A stretch of DNA of 5,748 nucleotides from Acidobacteriota bacterium (GTDB taxonomy: Bacteria > Acidobacteriota > Thermoanaerobaculia > Multivoradales > JAHEKO01), in NCBI GenBank assembly GCA_030610025.1, contig JAUWSP010000205.1:1-5748 (forward strand), given 5' to 3'. Shown one piece after another: positions 1 to 5,600 of the stretch (its first letter is position 1; the number at the start of each line of letters is the position of its first letter). The notes beneath the pieces are model-generated. The model had not been told where the DNA came from. It worked only from the letters and a program-made list of their open reading frames with translations, and made no database searches. Both the position numbers and the translations under genes were made by a program.

Positions 1-3000
1 AGAGCCTGGCACCGGAAACAGCTCGAGCTCCGGTCGCAAGGCGAAAGTCAACCGCTCCCTGCCACAGCCGAGCCAGATCAGGTCGGTTTCCTGCATGAGC
101 GCATCCAGCCAGGCCGGGTAGTAGGGGTCCAGTCGGGCCGGTAGGAGCTCCGACTCCCAGAGCCGGACTGGCGCCGGGTAGCCGAACAGGCTCTCCAGGG
201 CTGCCTTCAGGCGCTCCGGGTCGCCTCCAGCACCTCCCAACTCCTGTTGCGTAGCGAGGAACAGGGGCAGCTGGTCGAGAGATAGGGCCTCGAAGGAGGG
301 TCGAGCCTCGGCTCTCAACAGCCTCAAGAGGCGTTCGAGATTGTCACTGTCGCAGATCTCGAGCCTCTGGTCGTCCCCGCTCCGGAAATGATCGATGACG
401 ACGCGCTCCTCTCCCAGCAGCGCCTCCACCACCTCCCTGGTGTCGGCCTCGCTCAGAGCAAAGGTCTCCGCCAGAAGCTGATCGGGGAAGGGGCCATAGA
501 ACCGGATCCACTCCGATATCAGATCCACCAGGGTCGCCCCACCCTCTTCCGAATCGATCTCCCGGTCGGCCTCACTCGAGGATTCGACGAGACGCTCCTG
601 TGCCCACTCCAGGGCCACTCGGGAGCCATCGGATCCGCTCACCAGGGGCTGGAGCTCGACCGCATCGTCTCGCCACCCGAGACCCCGGGACAGCCTGGGC
701 AGGTCCTCTACATGGACTACAACCTCCAGGCCCTCTCGAGAGTCACTCCCCCGGACCCACACGAGACGCTCCGAGGCCGACCGTAGGATGGCATCGAGGT
801 CGGACTCCTCCCGGGCTAGATCTCGGTCCATCGCCGCGAGAAGCTCCTGCCACTCTGCGACCGGCAGGACCACTCGCTCCCGGGCCCAGTCCACGAGATC
901 CCGCGCCGTCTGCGGGGCATAGCCTGGATAGACCCTGTGCAGCTTGCGCTGGAAGCGGTCCACCAGTGCGGAAGGCAGCCGCGGCCGCAAATGAGAGCTA
1001 TGGACCAACTCCTGCAGCAGGTCGCGGCGCAGGCCTCCAGCCCGACCTTCCTCGGGAATGTCGTCCTCGTACATCAGGCGGTTGGTCTGCTTCCACAGCA
1101 CATTGGCCGCCAGGGGCGAGGCTTCGGAGGTGGAGACTTCGCTCCAGCGAATCTCTCCTCGCTCCAGCTCTCCGAGAACGAGCTTGAGGCTCTCCAGATC
1201 GAACTCGTCCTGAATGCAGGTTCGCCAGGTCTCCACCAGAATCGGGAAGTCCTCATAGCGGGAGACCGCCGCGAGCATCTTCTTGGCTCGCTGACGGTTG
1301 AGCCACAGGGGAACGCGGCGCCGGAAGCTCGCCCGTGGCAAGAGCAGGGCCCGGCCGGCGTTCTCGCGGAATCGCGCTCCGAAGAAACCGCTTCTCTCCA
1401 GGCTGTGGCGCAGGAGCTCTTCGACGTTGTCGGGGCGCACCAGCCCCAGGAGATGATCGACATCGAGACGCTCATCGGCGGAGAAAAGGAGGCAGTCGTT
1501 GTCCTGCTCTACAGAGAGCTGCCGGCCCTCCTCCCGTTCCCAGGCCGCTGCCAGGGCCAGGGCCCAGGGCCGGTTGACCTGCCCGCCCCACAGGCTGTGA
1601 AGGACCAGCCCGCTGCGACCCTCCCGCGGATCGGGGTCCATCACCCGCTCCACGACGAGGTGCTTTCGGTGCGGCAGGCCACAGCCGGTCACGGCTCGTT
1701 GATGCTCGAGGAGCCGTACCAGGTCCTCGGCTGCAGAGGCCTCGACGCTGTGCTCTTCTCGCAGCCGGCGTAGTGGAACAGCGCGACCACCCTTGTCCTC
1801 CAGAAAGCTGTCGGCCTGCTCCAGGAACTCGCCGGTTCTGGAAGCCAGATGGAAGCTGCGGTTGCGCTCCTCGGCTCGCCAGAAGGGAGCCATGGCTGAA
1901 GAGCGACGCGCCGGCACGACCAGCACGTCGTTGTGAGTCACGGCCCGGATCTGCCAGTTCTGTGCTCCCAGGGTGAAGGTGTCACCCACCGAGCGCTCCC
2001 AGACGAACTCTTCGTCCAGCTCGCCGATCTTGGCCATCGAGTCCTGCAGTCGAAGATGGAAGTAGCCGCGGTCCGGAATCGTACCGCCAGATTGATAGAC
2101 CAGACGAGATGCTCCCGGCCGAGCACGGATCGTGTTGTCCACCCGATCGAGGGTCACTCGCGGACGCAGCTCCCGGATTCGACTGTCGGCGTAGCGGCCG
2201 GCCAGCATCTCCTGGACCAGATCGAACTGGCGACGCTTGAGATCCCGGTATGGGTAGGTGGATCGTAGAAAGGCATAGAGCTCGTCCACATTCCAGGTCT
2301 CGGCCACCACCATGGACAACATCACCTGCGCGAGAACGTCGAGAGCTCCGGTTACGGGCCGGCTCTCCTCGATCTCCTGTTCCAGGACACATCGGGCCAT
2401 CACCGCAGCGTCCAGGAGGTCCCGGTCGAAGAGGGCGTAGAGCCGACCCTTGCTGGGCGCACCGACCTGGTGCCCAGCTCGCCCCAGGCGCTGCACCGCC
2501 GAGGCGACGGTCGCCGGGGTCTGCACCAGCAGTACCTCGTCCAGCGCCCCGATGTCGATGCCGAGCTCGAGAGAGTTGGTGGCGACCAGGGCTGCCAGGC
2601 GGCCCTCTTTCAAGCGCTCCTCCACGACGGCGCGGATCTCGCGTGAAAGCGATCCGTGGTGCGAGTAGGCCAGATCAGCCGCCTCGGTCTCGTTGAGCAG
2701 CCGGGTGAGCTTTTCGGTCAGGCGTCGGGAGTTGGCGAAGATCAAGGTAGAGCGATTGCTCTGGATGCGACCTCGTATCCCGGCGATCAGGGGTTCCCAG
2801 ACCTCTGCAGGAGAGGGCTCCGCTCTGAGCCTCTCCGGCACGCTCTCCGATTGGCTCGACTCTTCCTGCCCTCGGGCAACAACTCTCAGGTCGTACCGCT
2901 TCGCCTCGGATGAGGCGATGACCGAAACCGGCCGCGGTCGACCGGTGGGCTCCCCTTCTGCCCCCAGGGGTCCTGGCTGATATCCGCCCACGAAGCGAGC

Positions 3001-3642
3001 GATGCGCTCGGCGGGACGGACCGTGGCCGAAAGGGCGATGCGCTGAAACTCTCCCGCCAGCAGGCCGAGCCGCTCCACGGCAGTGATCAGATGAGTCCCC
3101 CGCTTGCTACCGGCGACTGCGTGGATCTCGTCCAGGATCACGCACTCCACGGATCCGAGGATGGATCTGCCGCCCTTCGAGGTCAGCAGGATGTTGAGGC
3201 TCTCCGGGGTGGTGATCAGCACCTCGGGAGGGTGTCGAAGCATCTTCTGTCGCTCGGCGGAGGGCGTATCGCCGCTGCGGGTCTGCACTCGCACCGCCTC
3301 GGGCCGCTCGCCAGCCTCTTCGAGCTCGATCTCCAACCGGGCCAGGGGGCCCAGCAGGTTGCGCTGGATGTCGTTGTTGAGTGCCCGCAGGGGAGAGACG
3401 TAGAGCACCTTCGTCTGCCCACCTCGCCATTGTCCCGTCAGCAACTGGTTCAAGGACCAGAGAAAGGCCGCCAGCGTCTTGCCGCTGCCGGTAGGGGCGG
3501 TGACGAGAACGTTCTCGCCAGCCGCGATGCGCGGCCAGACCTGGGCTTGCACCTTGGTCGGCTCTCCGACCTCGCGCTGGAACCAGCCGGCGACGACCGG
3601 ATGAAAGACGCTCAATGCTGCGCTTGTCTTCTTAGACGCCAT
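1..3642 (-). CDS. lhr: Lhr-type ATP-dependent DNA/RNA helicase, C-terminus beyond window
   Basis: Superfamily 2 helicase of the Lhr (large helicase-related) group, ATP-driven 3'-5' translocases acting in DNA repair. I translated the frame from ATG at 3642 to base 1 and found no stop: 1214 codons, partial. Visible motifs: Q-motif-like region near residues 29-34; Walker A APTGSGKT at 49-56; motif Ia SPLRAL at 83-88; TTPESL at 144-149; Walker B DEIH at 171-174; SATV motif III at 205-208; IFANSRR at 301-307; motif V ELGIDIG around 359-365; motif VI QRLGRAGH at 383-390. GTIPDRG at about 520-526 and the following GELDEEFVWERSVGD belong to the DEAD/H-associated domain typical of Lhr. The Lhr core ends near residue 860; a C-terminal region with winged-helix-like sequence (YGPFPDQLLAETFALS, from 1049) follows. 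Known full-length Lhr proteins have about 1500 residues, so roughly 300 are probably outside the window. An in-frame stop at 3667-3669 and no other ATG between support this start; no strong Shine-Dalgarno precedes it. Family certain, cellular role inferred. Confidence 0.95.
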   Translation of the reverse strand, partial: MASKKTSAALSVFHPVVAGWFQREVGEPTKVQAQVWPRIAAGENVLVTAPTGSGKTLAAFLWSLNQLLTGQWRGGQTKVLYVSPLRALNNDIQRNLLGPLARLEIELEEAGERPEAVRVQTRSGDTPSAERQKMLRHPPEVLITTPESLNILLTSKGGRSILGSVECVILDEIHAVAGSKRGTHLITAVERLGLLAGEFQRIALSATVRPAERIARFVGGYQPGPLGAEGEPTGRPRPVSVIASSEAKRYDLRVVARGQEESSQSESVPERLRAEPSPAEVWEPLIAGIRGRIQSNRSTLIFANSRRLTEKLTRLLNETEAADLAYSHHGSLSREIRAVVEERLKEGRLAALVATNSLELGIDIGALDEVLLVQTPATVASAVQRLGRAGHQVGAPSKGRLYALFDRDLLDAAVMARCVLEQEIEESRPVTGALDVLAQVMLSMVVAETWNVDELYAFLRSTYPYRDLKRRQFDLVQEMLAGRYADSRIRELRPRVTLDRVDNTIRARPGASRLVYQSGGTIPDRGYFHLRLQDSMAKIGELDEEFVWERSVGDTFTLGAQNWQIRAVTHNDVLVVPARRSSAMAPFWRAEERNRSFHLASRTGEFLEQADSFLEDKGGRAVPLRRLREEHSVEASAAEDLVRLLEHQRAVTGCGLPHRKHLVVERVMDPDPREGRSGLVLHSLWGGQVNRPWALALAAAWEREEGRQLSVEQDNDCLLFSADERLDVDHLLGLVRPDNVEELLRHSLERSGFFGARFRENAGRALLLPRASFRRRVPLWLNRQRAKKMLAAVSRYEDFPILVETWRTCIQDEFDLESLKLVLGELERGEIRWSEVSTSEASPLAANVLWKQTNRLMYEDDIPEEGRAGGLRRDLLQELVHSSHLRPRLPSALVDRFQRKLHRVYPGYAPQTARDLVDWARERVVLPVAEWQELLAAMDRDLAREESDLDAILRSASERLVWVRGSDSREGLEVVVHVEDLPRLSRGLGWRDDAVELQPLVSGSDGSRVALEWAQERLVESSSEADREIDSEEGGATLVDLISEWIRFYGPFPDQLLAETFALSEADTREVVEALLGEERVVIDHFRSGDDQRLEICDSDNLERLLRLLRAEARPSFEALSLDQLPLFLATQQELGGAGGDPERLKAALESLFGYPAPVRLWESELLPARLDPYYPAWLDALMQETDLIWLGCGRERLTFALRPELELFPVPGS

Positions 3643-3834
3643 GCTCGACCACGCTCTGCCACTACGTTACCGGAGCCGTAGTGTAGCCCTTCTTCCCAGC
3701 GGCGTTATCAACTTGAGGTCCGTCCGCGTGGTCCGCTGGGGGACGGCGTCGGCTTTGTAGGGGCGCCCCTTGCGGGCGCCCGCGGGAGGGGGCAAGCCCC
3801 TCCCCTACATCCAGGCGGGCCGCCGCCTTGTCTT
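3643..3834. other. Intergenic region between helicase start and IS right end
   Basis: This stretch holds no convincing gene. A minus-strand frame crossing it continues out of the IS right end and through the palindromic repeat, so it is not credible as a protein. It contains the 5' leader of the helicase gene and the REP-like repeat at 3756-3809. A helicase promoter is not clear: TTGATA (minus strand, 3711-3706) and TACACT (3685-3680) resemble -35 and -10 boxes, but they are 20 bp apart, longer than the usual 16-18. Confidence 0.6.
3756..3809. repeat. REP-like compound palindrome (two hairpins, complementary loops)
   Basis: A 54-bp imperfect palindrome bounded by TGTAGGGG (3756-3763) and CCCCTACA (3802-3809). 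It can fold as two adjacent hairpins. The first has arms GGGCGCCC at 3761-3768 and 3774-3781 with loop CTTGC. The second has arms GGGAGGGG at 3784-3791 and CCCCTCCC at 3797-3804 with loop GCAAG. The two loops are exact reverse complements of each other, so a single long cruciform or a pair of kissing hairpins is possible. GC-rich elements of this shape are commonly dispersed in bacterial intergenic regions. With only one copy in the window, dispersal is inferred. No T-run follows on either strand, so a simple intrinsic terminator is unlikely. Confidence 0.75.
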
Positions 3835-3838
3835 CCAT
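3824..3838. other. IS target half-site plus core at the right-end junction
   Basis: Host sequence next to the IS right end, followed by the putative core CCAT at 3835-3838. The nine bases CGCCTTGTC at 3824-3832 are the same, letter for letter, as the RNA that would be read from the minus strand at 4051-4043 inside the IS. This is the relation expected between the left half of a target and a bridge-RNA left target guide. Two bases (TT, 3833-3834) between the match and the core do not match. Confidence 0.6.
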
Positions 3839-3848
3839 GAGAAGGCCA
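3837..3848. repeat. Right subterminal inverted repeat of the IS (IRR)
   Basis: ATGAGAAGGCCA, the exact reverse complement of 5285-5296. It is the outermost part of the IS on the helicase side and overlaps the putative core CCAT (3835-3838) by two bases. Confidence 0.8.
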
Positions 3849-3853
3849 TTTTG

Positions 3854-3859
3854 TGTCAA
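3854..3859 (-). promoter_or_regulatory. Outward-facing -35 box in the IS right end
   Basis: On the minus strand this reads TTGACA, a perfect sigma-70 -35 hexamer, about 20 bp inside the right end and pointing out toward the helicase gene. No good -10 hexamer lies 16-18 bp downstream, either in the integrated form (GGAAGA region) or in the reconstructed circle junction (GGGATG region). It may therefore be weak, need an activator, or be chance. Confidence 0.35.
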
Positions 3860-3875
3860 GGCCGCCTTGGCGGCC
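3860..3875. repeat. 16-bp palindrome inside the IS right end
   Basis: GGCCGCC at 3860-3866 and GGCGGCC at 3869-3875 are separated by TT. It lies between the putative bridge RNA and the outward -35 box. On the minus strand it would form a strong stem after the RNA, and could bound the transcript's 3' end, but no U-tract follows directly. Confidence 0.5.
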
Positions 3876-3914
3876 CAGCTTCGTGGCGGGTAGCGAGCTC
3901 GGGCAGATCCAGGG

Positions 3915-4080
3915 CTGGGATTTGACCGTTGCCGCAGGCTTCCATTCGCACTCTGGGTGAGCCAGCTCTTCTGGCTCGGTGCACGTTGGGATCCATCCAG
4001 TACAGAAGCTGCCATCTCGTCATCGGTCTCAGGTTCGGACCTGACAAGGCGCCGCAGTCTTCCGGACTGGGCGGTCGGTC
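3915..4080 (-). ncRNA. Putative bridge RNA (seekRNA) of the IS
   Basis: Non-coding part of the IS downstream of the transposase, read on the transposase strand; outer limits are approximate. Three small stem-loops follow 5' to 3': CAGTC/GACTG (4069-4065 with 4059-4055), possibly extended by CGCC/GGCG across a bulged C; TCAGGT/ACCTGA (4044-4039 with 4034-4029); and GAGCCAG/CTGGCTC (3977-3971 with 3965-3959). The second hairpin is flanked by CGCCUUGUC (4051-4043, overlapping the stem by two bases) and CGAUGACGAGAUGG (4025-4012). These match the two target halves outside the IS in the orientation required of left and right target guides. The third hairpin is flanked by AUCCCA (3992-3987), equal to the donor at 5295-5300, and by AUGG (3945-3942), the complement of the core; these donor matches are short. 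IS110-superfamily transposases are known to be guided by such RNAs, encoded at the right end in IS1111-type elements. The structure was judged by eye, without a folding calculation. Confidence 0.65.
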
Positions 4081-4141
4081 GGTAGATAGCCCTGGGGTTG
4101 GACATGCGGTTGGATTGCCAATGCCGAGACGCAAGGAGTCG

Positions 4142-5209
4142 TTAGGCGGCGCGACGGTGCTCCTGGAAGAGGGGGTCGTAGACCTCACCGGTAGTCCACA
4201 GGTGATGGAGCAGCACCGCTAGCTTCCTAGCCATTGCGACAATGGCTCGATGATGGGCTCCCGGCCCACCTCGAGCCTGCAGGCGCTCACCGAAGCGGCG
4301 CAGGTCACAGTCCTCACCAAAGGGTCCCATCATGTAGTGAGCGCATTGGACCAGCAGTGCTCGCAGCATCGTGTTGCCCTCCTTGCGGATCCGCAGCTGT
4401 GGGCGACTCTGTCCAGACTCCCGCCTGGCCGGCACGAGCCCGAGATAGGCACCGACCTCCCGGCTGCGGCGAAAACGCTTCGGGTCCTGCACGATTAAAA
4501 CAAAGGCCAAGGCAGTGATGGGTCCCACACCTCGGACCTGCCGTAGCAGCTGGGTTTCGGGATAGCGCTCCTGGGCCAGGCGCTCGAGTTGCCGCTCGTA
4601 GGCCCAGATCTGTCGGTTCAGCTGCCCGAGCATCTCCAGCAAAGGCCCCAATGCCGGCTCGAGGAAGTCGGGCAAGACCTCACCGAGTCGCCGGGCAAAC
4701 GTCGACGTGGAGCCTCCGGGAATCCGTAAGCCATGCGACTTGGCTACGCCCTGACAGTGTAGAACCAGGCGCGTGCGGGTCCGGACCAGCATCTGTCGGG
4801 CCCGCAGGACGGCCAAGTCTGCCTGTGCCTGGGCACTGCCATGCTGGACCGGGGCCAGGAGCTTGGGATCGACGCGCGCCAGACGGGCCAGGTACTCGGC
4901 ATCGACCTGATCGTCCTTGTTGCGGTTTTCGTAGATCAGACGCAGCTTGCGGGGATTCGCTACGATCACCTCGTGACCCAGCTCGCTGAGCAGTCGAGAA
5001 ATCCACGGGGAATGGGTGCCCACCTCCAAGGCAATACGCAAACGTGTCGCGCCGGAAAAGCGCCCGCTCAGGGCGCTTTGGATTGTGCGGAGCCGAGAGC
5101 GCTCCACCACTTCGCCGCTGTCTCGCTGCAACACGATGATCTGGGAGTACCGATCACCGACGTCCAATCCCACCACTTGATTCGCTTGCTCCATGCTAGT
5201 CTGATCCAT
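4142..5209 (-). CDS. IS110-family transposase (DEDD N-terminal plus Tnp_20 domain)
   Basis: A 355-residue RNA-guided recombinase that excises and inserts the surrounding IS as a circle. The N-terminal RuvC-like DEDD domain shows D16 in VGLDVGD, E62 in ALEVGTHSPW, and D100 and D103 in NKDDQVDAEYLARL. A helical, partly coiled-coil-like linker spans about 125-220. The C-terminal Tnp_20 domain starts with GVGPITALAF (225-234) and continues through GAYLGLVPARRESGQ (251-265); S263 is the likely nucleophilic serine, followed by IRKEGNTMLR (272-281). Length is normal for the family, with no frameshift or internal stop, so the protein looks functional. I chose the ATG at 5209 because an AAGGAG Shine-Dalgarno lies 8 nt upstream; an in-frame ATG at 5239 would add ten residues (MMALKKGDWP) but has no comparable site. 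The stop is TAA at 4142-4144. The gene is alone on its strand, followed by the putative bridge RNA. Family assignment is firm; subgroup IS1111 rests on the element's ends. Confidence 0.94.
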   Translation of the reverse strand: MDQTSMEQANQVVGLDVGDRYSQIIVLQRDSGEVVERSRLRTIQSALSGRFSGATRLRIALEVGTHSPWISRLLSELGHEVIVANPRKLRLIYENRNKDDQVDAEYLARLARVDPKLLAPVQHGSAQAQADLAVLRARQMLVRTRTRLVLHCQGVAKSHGLRIPGGSTSTFARRLGEVLPDFLEPALGPLLEMLGQLNRQIWAYERQLERLAQERYPETQLLRQVRGVGPITALAFVLIVQDPKRFRRSREVGAYLGLVPARRESGQSRPQLRIRKEGNTMLRALLVQCAHYMMGPFGEDCDLRRFGERLQARGGPGAHHRAIVAMARKLAVLLHHLWTTGEVYDPLFQEHRRAA

Positions 5210-5217
5210 GGGCCAGT

Positions 5218-5223
5218 CTCCTT
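5218..5223 (-). promoter_or_regulatory. Shine-Dalgarno site of the transposase gene
   Basis: AAGGAG on the minus strand, 8 nt before the ATG at 5209. It decides the start in favour of 5209 over the upstream ATG pair at 5239 and 5236. Confidence 0.7.
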
Positions 5224-5284
5224 TCTTGAGAGCCATCATGAGCTCGTACTAAAGATTGCAGACCTCTACAGTACTGCGCGAGGC

Positions 5285-5296
5285 TGGCCTTCTCAT
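5285..5296. repeat. Left subterminal inverted repeat of the IS (IRL)
   Basis: TGGCCTTCTCAT, the exact reverse complement of 3837-3848. It lies upstream of the transposase gene and is separated from the core CCAT (5298-5301) by a single C. Confidence 0.8.
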
Positions 5297-5297
5297 C

Positions 5298-5311
5298 CCA
5301 TCTCGTCATCG
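5298..5311. other. Core plus target half-site at the left-end junction
   Basis: CCATCTCGTCATCG: the core CCAT followed by ten bases of host DNA outside the IS. The same 14 bases occur at 4012-4025 inside the element. Transcribed from the minus strand, the internal copy would pair with the top strand here, as a right target guide should. The match ends exactly at the core on one side (5297 C versus 4011 G) and ends at 5312 on the other. Confidence 0.65.
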
Positions 5312-5409
5312 CGCGGGATCTCTTGTGCTCTGTGAAGGTCCTGGCGCTGCGCTCGATTCGGCACCCCCTGTCGAACCACCCGAACGAACCTCTCGAACCG
5401 ACGGTGCCA

Positions 5410-5486
5410 GATCGGCCAAGGGGTCTCCTGAGTCGGAGGGGCATGGTCGGGTGAGGCCGCAGACTCAGGAGACCCCTTGGCCGATC
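5410..5486. repeat. Long perfect inverted repeat, 25-bp arms and 27-nt loop
   Basis: The arms at 5410-5434 and 5462-5486 are exact reverse complements over 25 bp; the left arm starts GATCGGCCAAGGGG and the right arm ends CCCCTTGGCCGATC. The 27-nt spacer is 5435-5461. The stem would be very stable in RNA or as a cruciform. There is no T-run after it on either strand, so it is not a standard intrinsic terminator. It lies outside the IS, in the region between the helicase and hydrolase genes. It could be a small non-autonomous element, a structured RNA or a protein-binding site; nothing here decides between them. Confidence 0.85.
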
Positions 5487-5520
5487 CCATGCTCGGGTCG
5501 ATCCCATTTTCGGGTCGAAC
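5482..5520. repeat. 17-bp tandem repeat next to the large palindrome
   Basis: Two adjacent copies, CGATCCCATGCTCGGGT (5482-5498) and CGATCCCATTTTCGGGT (5499-5515), differ at two central positions; a degenerate third start, CGAACCC, follows at 5516. The first copy overlaps the last five bases of the right palindrome arm. Short tandem units of this kind can be operator sites for a dimeric regulator, but that is only a possibility. Confidence 0.6.
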
Positions 5521-5600
5521 CCTCGCCGACAACAGTCCGATTCTCTAATGTCCAGGCCTGCTGGCCACCCGGACGGACCTCCGCCCGTTAACGTTCCGGC

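Follow-up and report, generated by a model that had tools for sequence, protein, structure and literature searches.

The window analyzed here is one whole contig (C356; 5,748 bp) of a draft genome and carries an insertion sequence (IS) in which a long noncoding region follows the transposase gene. Two segments of this region match DNA at the two edges of the element, and a first-pass annotation had taken them for the target guides of a bridge RNA. The locus thus raises the question of whether the noncoding region encodes an RNA that guides insertion and, if so, which of the matching bases belong to the guides.

The element and its insertion site

The IS lies upstream of the 5′ part of an Lhr-type helicase gene (1-3642, minus strand), on the same strand, and interrupts a copy of a dispersed repeat. 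The element and its site comprise the following features.

3834-5303, minus strand: IS1111-type insertion sequence, 1,470 bp, left end at 5303 and right end at 3834 (subterminal inverted repeats [sTIRs] and end extensions common to relatives; uninterrupted repeat copies continue through the junction)
5297-5303, minus strand: left-end extension AGATGGG, starting with the core AG (relatives and published 7-bp rule)
5285-5296, minus strand: left sTIR, ATGAGAAGGCCA
4142-5239, minus strand: transposase gene, 365 aa from the first ATG (Pfam DEDD_Tnp_IS110 and Transposase_20; relatives)
3837-3848, minus strand: right sTIR, TGGCCTTCTCAT
3834-3836, minus strand: right-end extension GGA (relatives and published 3-bp rule)
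5304-5581, no strand assigned: left part of the interrupted dispersed repeat, with the target half CGATGACG at 5311-5304
3715-3833, no strand assigned: right part of the interrupted dispersed repeat, with the target half AGACAAGGCG at 3833-3824

Relatives of the transposase that are 355 aa long start at the second Met (5209). The profile of the relatives matched the solved transposases of IS621 (8wt6) and ISCro4 (9t56), and D26, E72, D110 and D113, invariant in the transposase alignment (A1), are presumably the catalytic four of a DEDD/RuvC transposase.

The sTIRs are 12 bp long and perfect. Relatives have similar sTIRs, an AGATGGG-like left extension (8 bp as read in L016, L026 and L018) and a right extension GGA or AGA; as these shared ends fit the 7/3-bp rule of IS1111 elements, the element was taken to run from 5303 to 3834. 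The left boundary at 5303/5304 was set from relatives and from uninterrupted repeat copies, and because AGA is found at both junctions, sequence alone leaves 3 bp of play in the boundary. The element is single-copy, with no other close copy in its own genome.

The interrupted repeat is intergenic and dispersed. In the element's own genome, the joined site ATGACGAGACAAGGCG was counted 10 times exactly and 24 times within 2 mismatches, against 0 for the reversed control; G014 has 16 such sites and G015 has 8, and the other genomes of the family have 0 to 3, as do their controls. Most of the sites belong to copies of the repeat. A search with one repeat copy gave 24 places of at least 76 nt, the query among them, and in addition the interrupted copy of the window. 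A repeat copy is present in 21 of the 22 own-genome regions fetched, and two of the site matches (the second in L092, and the one in L127) proved unrelated. All 16 sites of G014 have TG instead of the AG core, so that the guide of the window element would fit them poorly. Such a target shows how one guide can offer many sites outside genes.

Uninterrupted copies continue through the insertion point with a single AGA, while the IS has AGA at both junctions, which indicates insertion without target duplication; by the published rule, the single AGA of empty sites is assigned once to the target and once to the left end of the IS. In two genomes of the same genus, similarity of the region upstream of lhr to the window stops at about 3692, and neither the IS nor the central part of the repeat was found upstream of lhr in these two genomes within the fetched stretch, although L073 has a 30-nt piece resembling one end of the repeat. 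Empty sites were therefore taken from other repeat copies, no orthologous one having been found.

The repeat (L088-L126) has a short form of ~180 bp and longer forms near 380 bp, often at contig ends, with ~25 copies in the own genome and more in both same-genus genomes. The window copy has terminal inverted repeats at 3715-3739 and 5557-5581. Its right part contains a G+C-rich palindrome, GTAGGGG...CCCCTAC (~3756-3811), with similar palindromes at the same place in the G014 copies L109, L110, L113, L114, L116 and L117, and its left part contains a 30-bp inverted repeat (5410-5486; 93% complementary, 17-nt loop).

Target guides of the predicted RNA

Both reported matches are exact: minus-strand 4025-4012 and minus-strand 5311-5298 read CGATGACGAGATGG, minus-strand 4051-4043 and plus-strand 3824-3832 read CGCCTTGTC, and a short hairpin (CAGGT/ACCTG) separates the two segments. 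The 14-mer had been placed directly outside the left end; it straddles the IS boundary instead, with 8 bp in the flank (5304-5311) and 6 bp in the IS (5298-5303). When 3,000 random 46-mers of the window's dinucleotide make-up were compared on both strands with the noncoding region, 14 nt was reached by one and at least 9 nt by 327, showing that the 14-mer is indeed rare by chance and that the 9-mer alone is not unusual. A second, same-strand 9-nt match of the right flank was dismissed as meaningless. In the following reading, the guides are parts of a structured RNA.

3923-4068, minus strand: conserved structured RNA region (predicted guide RNA), ~145 nt (covariance model match; compensatory changes)
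4004-4063, minus strand: predicted target-binding loop, closed by a stem of 4063-4059 and 4057-4054 with 4012-4004 (9 pairs, 4 changed on both sides, 98.2% of cells paired)
4043-4051, minus strand: predicted right target guide CGCCTTGTC, the reverse complement of right-flank positions 2-10
4018-4022, minus strand: predicted left target guide TGACG, equal to left-flank positions -5 to -1
4016-4017, minus strand: copy of the core AG within the left target guide

Relatives were collected by protein search of 18, 72, 396 and 148 genomes around the element's own, of species genomes and of viral contigs; the last yielded no relative with a single-protein query and four loci with an alignment query. 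Of 40 loci (L001-L040), we analyzed the 28 in which a left flank and the two ends were all present (leaving out L002, L003, L008, L010, L011, L012, L013, L017, L023, L032 as a duplicate of L033, L034 and L035), and 21 remained after removal of the repeated copies L020, L022, L024 and L027-L030. The nearest elements compared as DNA were at most 58% identical; the closest protein relatives (76-93% identical) lay outside the DNA comparison. The core was located by motif and picked by hand where there were two candidates (L005, L016) or none (L009); these choices, like those of the 8-bp left ends of L016, L026 and L018, were made with the flanks in view.

Nearly all of these elements share an RNA layout, consisting of a GACTGCG-like stem strand, the right guide, a hairpin, CCG, the left guide, the core and an AT(G/T)GCAG-like stem strand, from which L007 and L009 depart most. 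The refuting condition set by the first-pass annotation was examined here, and the guide reading survived it: homologous elements inserted elsewhere have segments of other sequence, each fitting the flanks of its own element. In a combined score, the cognate flanks were the best or joint best in 19/21 elements (unique best in 18), and each guide alone ranked them so in 15/21; for all of these, 0/20,000 permutations were as good. Left-flank positions -5 to -1 match in 16, 17, 20, 19 and 20 of the 21 elements and position -6 in 5. On the right, where the counts are favorable because the register was picked by best match, positions 2 to 9 match in 19, 20, 19, 20, 20, 18, 18 and 17 elements, and the count drops to 11 at position 10 and to 3 at position 11. 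Borders this sharp, at -6 and at +10/+11, argue for a left guide of 5 nt and a right guide of 7-8 nt, with a core of 2 nt. A single long 14-nt guide was rejected on this basis, as the flank is followed by 5 nt plus the core alone: guide and core account for only 7 bases of the 14-mer, CGA (-8 to -6) is incidental, and ATGG after the core is near-constant in the RNA and the IS end among the 21 elements. The support for the guide reading is thus comparative and does not come from the 14-mer itself.

We also rejected an RNA that reads the integrated junction, with the IS end as well as the flank. RNAs and ends hardly vary in the AT that follows the core, which leaves pairing there without variation to back it; L018, L033 and L019 break the AT, and bases +4 to +6 match the element's own end no better than those of others.

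The fit is imperfect in places. The right guide is weak in L005, L037 and L039, the left guide matches at just 3/6 positions in L036, L033 and L021, and the window's right target guide ends in CA where CT is expected, making core pairing imperfect. In the lineage of L020-L022, L025 and L027, the core is AA and not AG, and this holds for the left donor guide and the target guides as well as for the left end and the flank. As judged from these comparisons, the RNA has the hallmark of a bridge RNA, a predicted target loop with two guides that fit both target strands, core included.

The structure of the region, the second part of the annotation's check, proved to be conserved, with compensatory changes. 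It was evaluated on an alignment of 19 rows, with L007 and L009 left out. Helices written by hand paired in 95.2% of cells, with 9/19 pairs changed on both sides, and RNAalifold returned nearly the same helices from this alignment. The covariation score was 0.380, compared with at most 0.086 when partners were slid by 1-3 columns; shuffles of this sort do not remove relatedness. Folding of the window RNA alone was unremarkable (z -1.19; 24/200 shuffles as good), and Rfam gave no match in the window.

A covariance model of the 19 RNAs found matches in 26/396 genomes of the phylum, the own genome included. For a held-out check, 30 further loci were inspected. In 17 of them the right-end segment of the RNA recurs downstream, and 15 of these entered the test, after dropping L192 (a duplicate of L191) and L197 (lacking a recognizable end). 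The right-guide 7-mer matched its own flank at a mean of 5.53/7 positions versus 3.90 for the other flanks (0/50,000 permutations as good), and the cognate flank was the joint best at 9/15 loci. L191 is one more copy of an element from the earlier tests, and L175, L177 and L178 are kin of L021/L025. When four loci repeating others were taken out, 8/50,000 permutations were as good for the remaining 11. Misfits were L176, L183 and L187 (3/7) and L017 (4/7, with a left guide that fits 5/5).

The model also detected, with an E value of 2.8e-6, the RNA of a second IS110-type element of the own genome (L199; G000:C170, 704-861, minus strand), with a transposase ~30% identical and a right guide matching its own flank at 8/8 positions. 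The noncoding 3′ regions of L018, L003, L023, L033 and L017 measure ~520-650 nt or more, versus 240-363 nt in the other two-ended elements, and these five may have an extra component between the RNA and the right end. The left flank of L019 includes, shortly upstream of the element, an uninterrupted copy of its own target (CCTCCCTGG/AGTGCTGAACTTC). Verrucomicrobial relatives lie at GCCTAAC-like sites (left flanks of L007, L009, L011 and L012), and the right flanks of L007, L009 and L010 begin with AGTCGCCGG; these sites may resemble integron attC sites.

Segments corresponding to the element's own ends

The annotation dealt with the two flank matches. Besides the dispersed repeat as the target, our analysis adds two segments that correspond to the ends of the element, located in a second loop 3′ of the target loop, the right donor guide on its 5′ strand and the left donor guide on its 3′ strand.

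3987-3990, minus strand: predicted right donor guide CCCA, the complement of TGGG in the left end
3947-3983, minus strand: donor-loop hairpin, TGCAC (3983-3979) with GTGCG (3951-3947) (inner helix, 5/5 pairs changed on both sides)
3939-3945, minus strand: predicted left donor guide ATGGAAG, equal to the right end plus core

The left donor guide is identical to the right end plus core in 20/21 elements, following the changes between GGA and AGA and between AG and AA; the exception, L006, has a flank reading AC and departs at the core. The right donor guide is fully complementary to the final bases of the left end in 15/21, following TGGG, TGAG, TAAGG and TTGG (0/20,000 permutations as good). 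It is partial in L018 and L019 and fails in L036, L033, L007 and L009, and it shows no clear pairing with the core. On the transposase tree, TGAG left ends appear in three apparent places (L018, L038 and L004-L006). The switch of the right end needs three changes on this tree, just one of which is forced by well-supported branches, so that few events lie behind the left donor guide.

No relative was found among plasmids at 1e-60. At 1e-12 there were distant relatives, six of which were selected, not at random, from 40 among the matches listed. The 7-mer of right end plus core was present in the noncoding region of four of the six (L200, of the IS4321 type, L204, L205 and L202), compared with 1.5-2.8% of shuffled noncoding regions. 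It was absent from those of L201 and L203; the sTIRs are uncertain in these two and in L202. Taken with the comparisons among the relatives, this points to an RNA that is predicted to recognize the element's own two ends through its second loop.

Proposed mechanism, alternatives and relation to known systems

We consider it very probable, from the comparisons above, that this IS1111-type element makes from its 3′ noncoding region a guide RNA of ~145 nt, which would direct the transposase to a dispersed repeat via both target strands and is predicted to recognize the element's ends via a second loop. The element, its ends, the conserved RNA structure, the four putative guide segments and the way these change along with the flanks and the ends can be read from the sequences; pairing of these segments with DNA in a transposase-RNA complex is inferred, and the steps beyond are modeled on the IS110/IS1111 literature. 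Together, transposase and RNA would make up a complex that pairs with 14-15 bp of the target (5 + 2 + 7-8), the same complex would also pair with the IS ends, and strand exchange between the two DNAs would take place at the shared AG core, without target duplication.

Chance, in a region rich in G+C, as the explanation of the 14-nt and 9-nt matches draws on the frequency of 9-nt matches (327/3,000 random flanks) and on the half of the 14-mer, 7 bases, that is incidental or constant. It has practically no probability left, being refuted by the permutation test on 21 elements and by the position-by-position matches: cognate matches recur at fixed positions in these elements and in the held-out loci. 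We also find it very improbable, to a slightly lesser degree, that the segments act as DNA, as short homologies or protein-binding sites. In this genome the matches are known from DNA alone, which suits that idea, yet the segments lie in the loops of a structure kept by compensatory changes, and opposite-strand homologies of 5 and 7 nt are too short for homologous recombination. In addition, a transposase-bound RNA from the same region has been described for members of the family (PMC11187229).

A stronger contender, though still an unlikely one, is a seekRNA that picks the target while the transposase alone recognizes the ends, the copies of the ends in the RNA having another role or being constant scaffold. 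It is in keeping with the 82-nt seekRNA of ISEc11 having sufficed for movement (PMC11187229), a length that by the present layout fits the target loop and not both loops, and with the right donor guide failing or being partial in 6/21 elements. Variation of the right end among relatives is also limited, to at least three changes on the tree. Against it, the left donor segment tracks GGA/AGA and AG/AA in 20/21 elements, the right one tracks four forms of the left end better than any of 20,000 permutations, and the 7-mer recurs in 4/6 distant elements; donor pairing has moreover been predicted by inspection for other IS1111 elements (PMC11208160). A bolder reading, which we consider likely, is that RNAs of the IS1111 family are complete four-guide bridge RNAs, in which everything past the short seekRNA forms a donor-binding loop pairing with the element's own ends (7 nt of right end plus core, 4-5 nt of the left end), and in which ends, core and guides are rewritten together by evolution. 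The failing or partial right donor guides slightly lower our confidence in this four-guide reading. By analogy in length, the target loop (4063-4004) would correspond to the 82-nt ISEc11 seekRNA and the two loops (~145 nt) to its long form of 154 nt (PMC11187229). As the 82-nt form sufficed in the assay, the donor loop may help and not be essential.

Siddiquee et al. left open, in the Discussion of PMC11187229, the role of the long RNA and the protein part that binds the IS ends, and Durrant et al. predicted donor pairing by inspection for six IS110/IS1111 elements (PMC11208160). A search of the open-access literature, with bioRxiv outside its scope, found no later study of the IS1111 donor loop. 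If the four-guide reading is true, the long seekRNA gains a job, and the question of how IS1111 ends are found has an answer. Because an RNA region of long-form length carries segments that track the IS ends in relatives and in some distant elements, the open question about the seekRNA becomes testable. The comparative support for a donor-binding loop is an addition to the known class, and to a family of interest for DNA insertion the element contributes an independent example that nature has reprogrammed and in which comparison has fixed the guide borders. The term "reprogrammable" used in the annotation holds for natural variation among relatives, and no further than that.

The element is an IS1111-type member of the seekRNA/bridge RNA class, a kind already published in 2024 (PMC11187229, PMC11208160). 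Its transposase has the C-terminal Transposase_20 domain and the sequence GLVPARRESG, in agreement with the motif GL-P----S(T)G of the IS1111 group (PMC11187229). The long noncoding region is 3′ of the transposase gene (305 nt from its stop to the end of the right sTIR, versus 64 nt ahead of the first ATG), of the two target guides the one complementary to the top strand comes first (5′), and the target is not duplicated. The 12-bp sTIRs are within the range of about 11-13 bp typical of the group. Insertion in one orientation at one target sequence was judged on the seven copies of one relative in G299, whose guides fit the target, and not on the single-copy window element. The IS110 group (IS621 type), in which the left end contains the RNA, the left target guide precedes the right one and sTIRs are very short or absent, does not fit, given an RNA 3′ of the transposase gene, the reversed guide order and 12-bp sTIRs. 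In invoking the target-loop logic of bridge RNAs and seekRNAs, the annotation was right in kind; the order of the guides and their place are those of an IS1111 seekRNA, the reverse of the IS110 type.

Like ISEc11, ISKpn4, ISPst6 and ISPa11 (PMC11187229), the window element combines a DEDD transposase, sTIRs with 7/3-bp extensions and a noncoding region 3′ of the transposase gene, and a top-strand complement precedes the bottom-strand match; unlike them, it has another target, an AG core and another host lineage. A dispersed repeat is also targeted by ISPa11, namely REP, and transposase-bound RNA from the 3′ noncoding region is known in IS1111-family members (PMC11187229). The donor loop predicted here is not described in the accessible text of that paper. 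The RNA resembles the IS621 bridge RNA (PMC11208160) in having two loops, each with two guides including the core, and differs in its location 3′ of the transposase gene (at the left end in IS621), its reversed guide order and its long sTIRs. The more distant L200, an IS4321-type element on plasmid NZ_LR999865.1, has TT at its right junction, another target and a transposase 29.9% identical over 78% of the query; it shares with the window element the 7-nt copy of right end plus core (ATAGATT in L200), preceded there by CTCAT, a complement of its left end.
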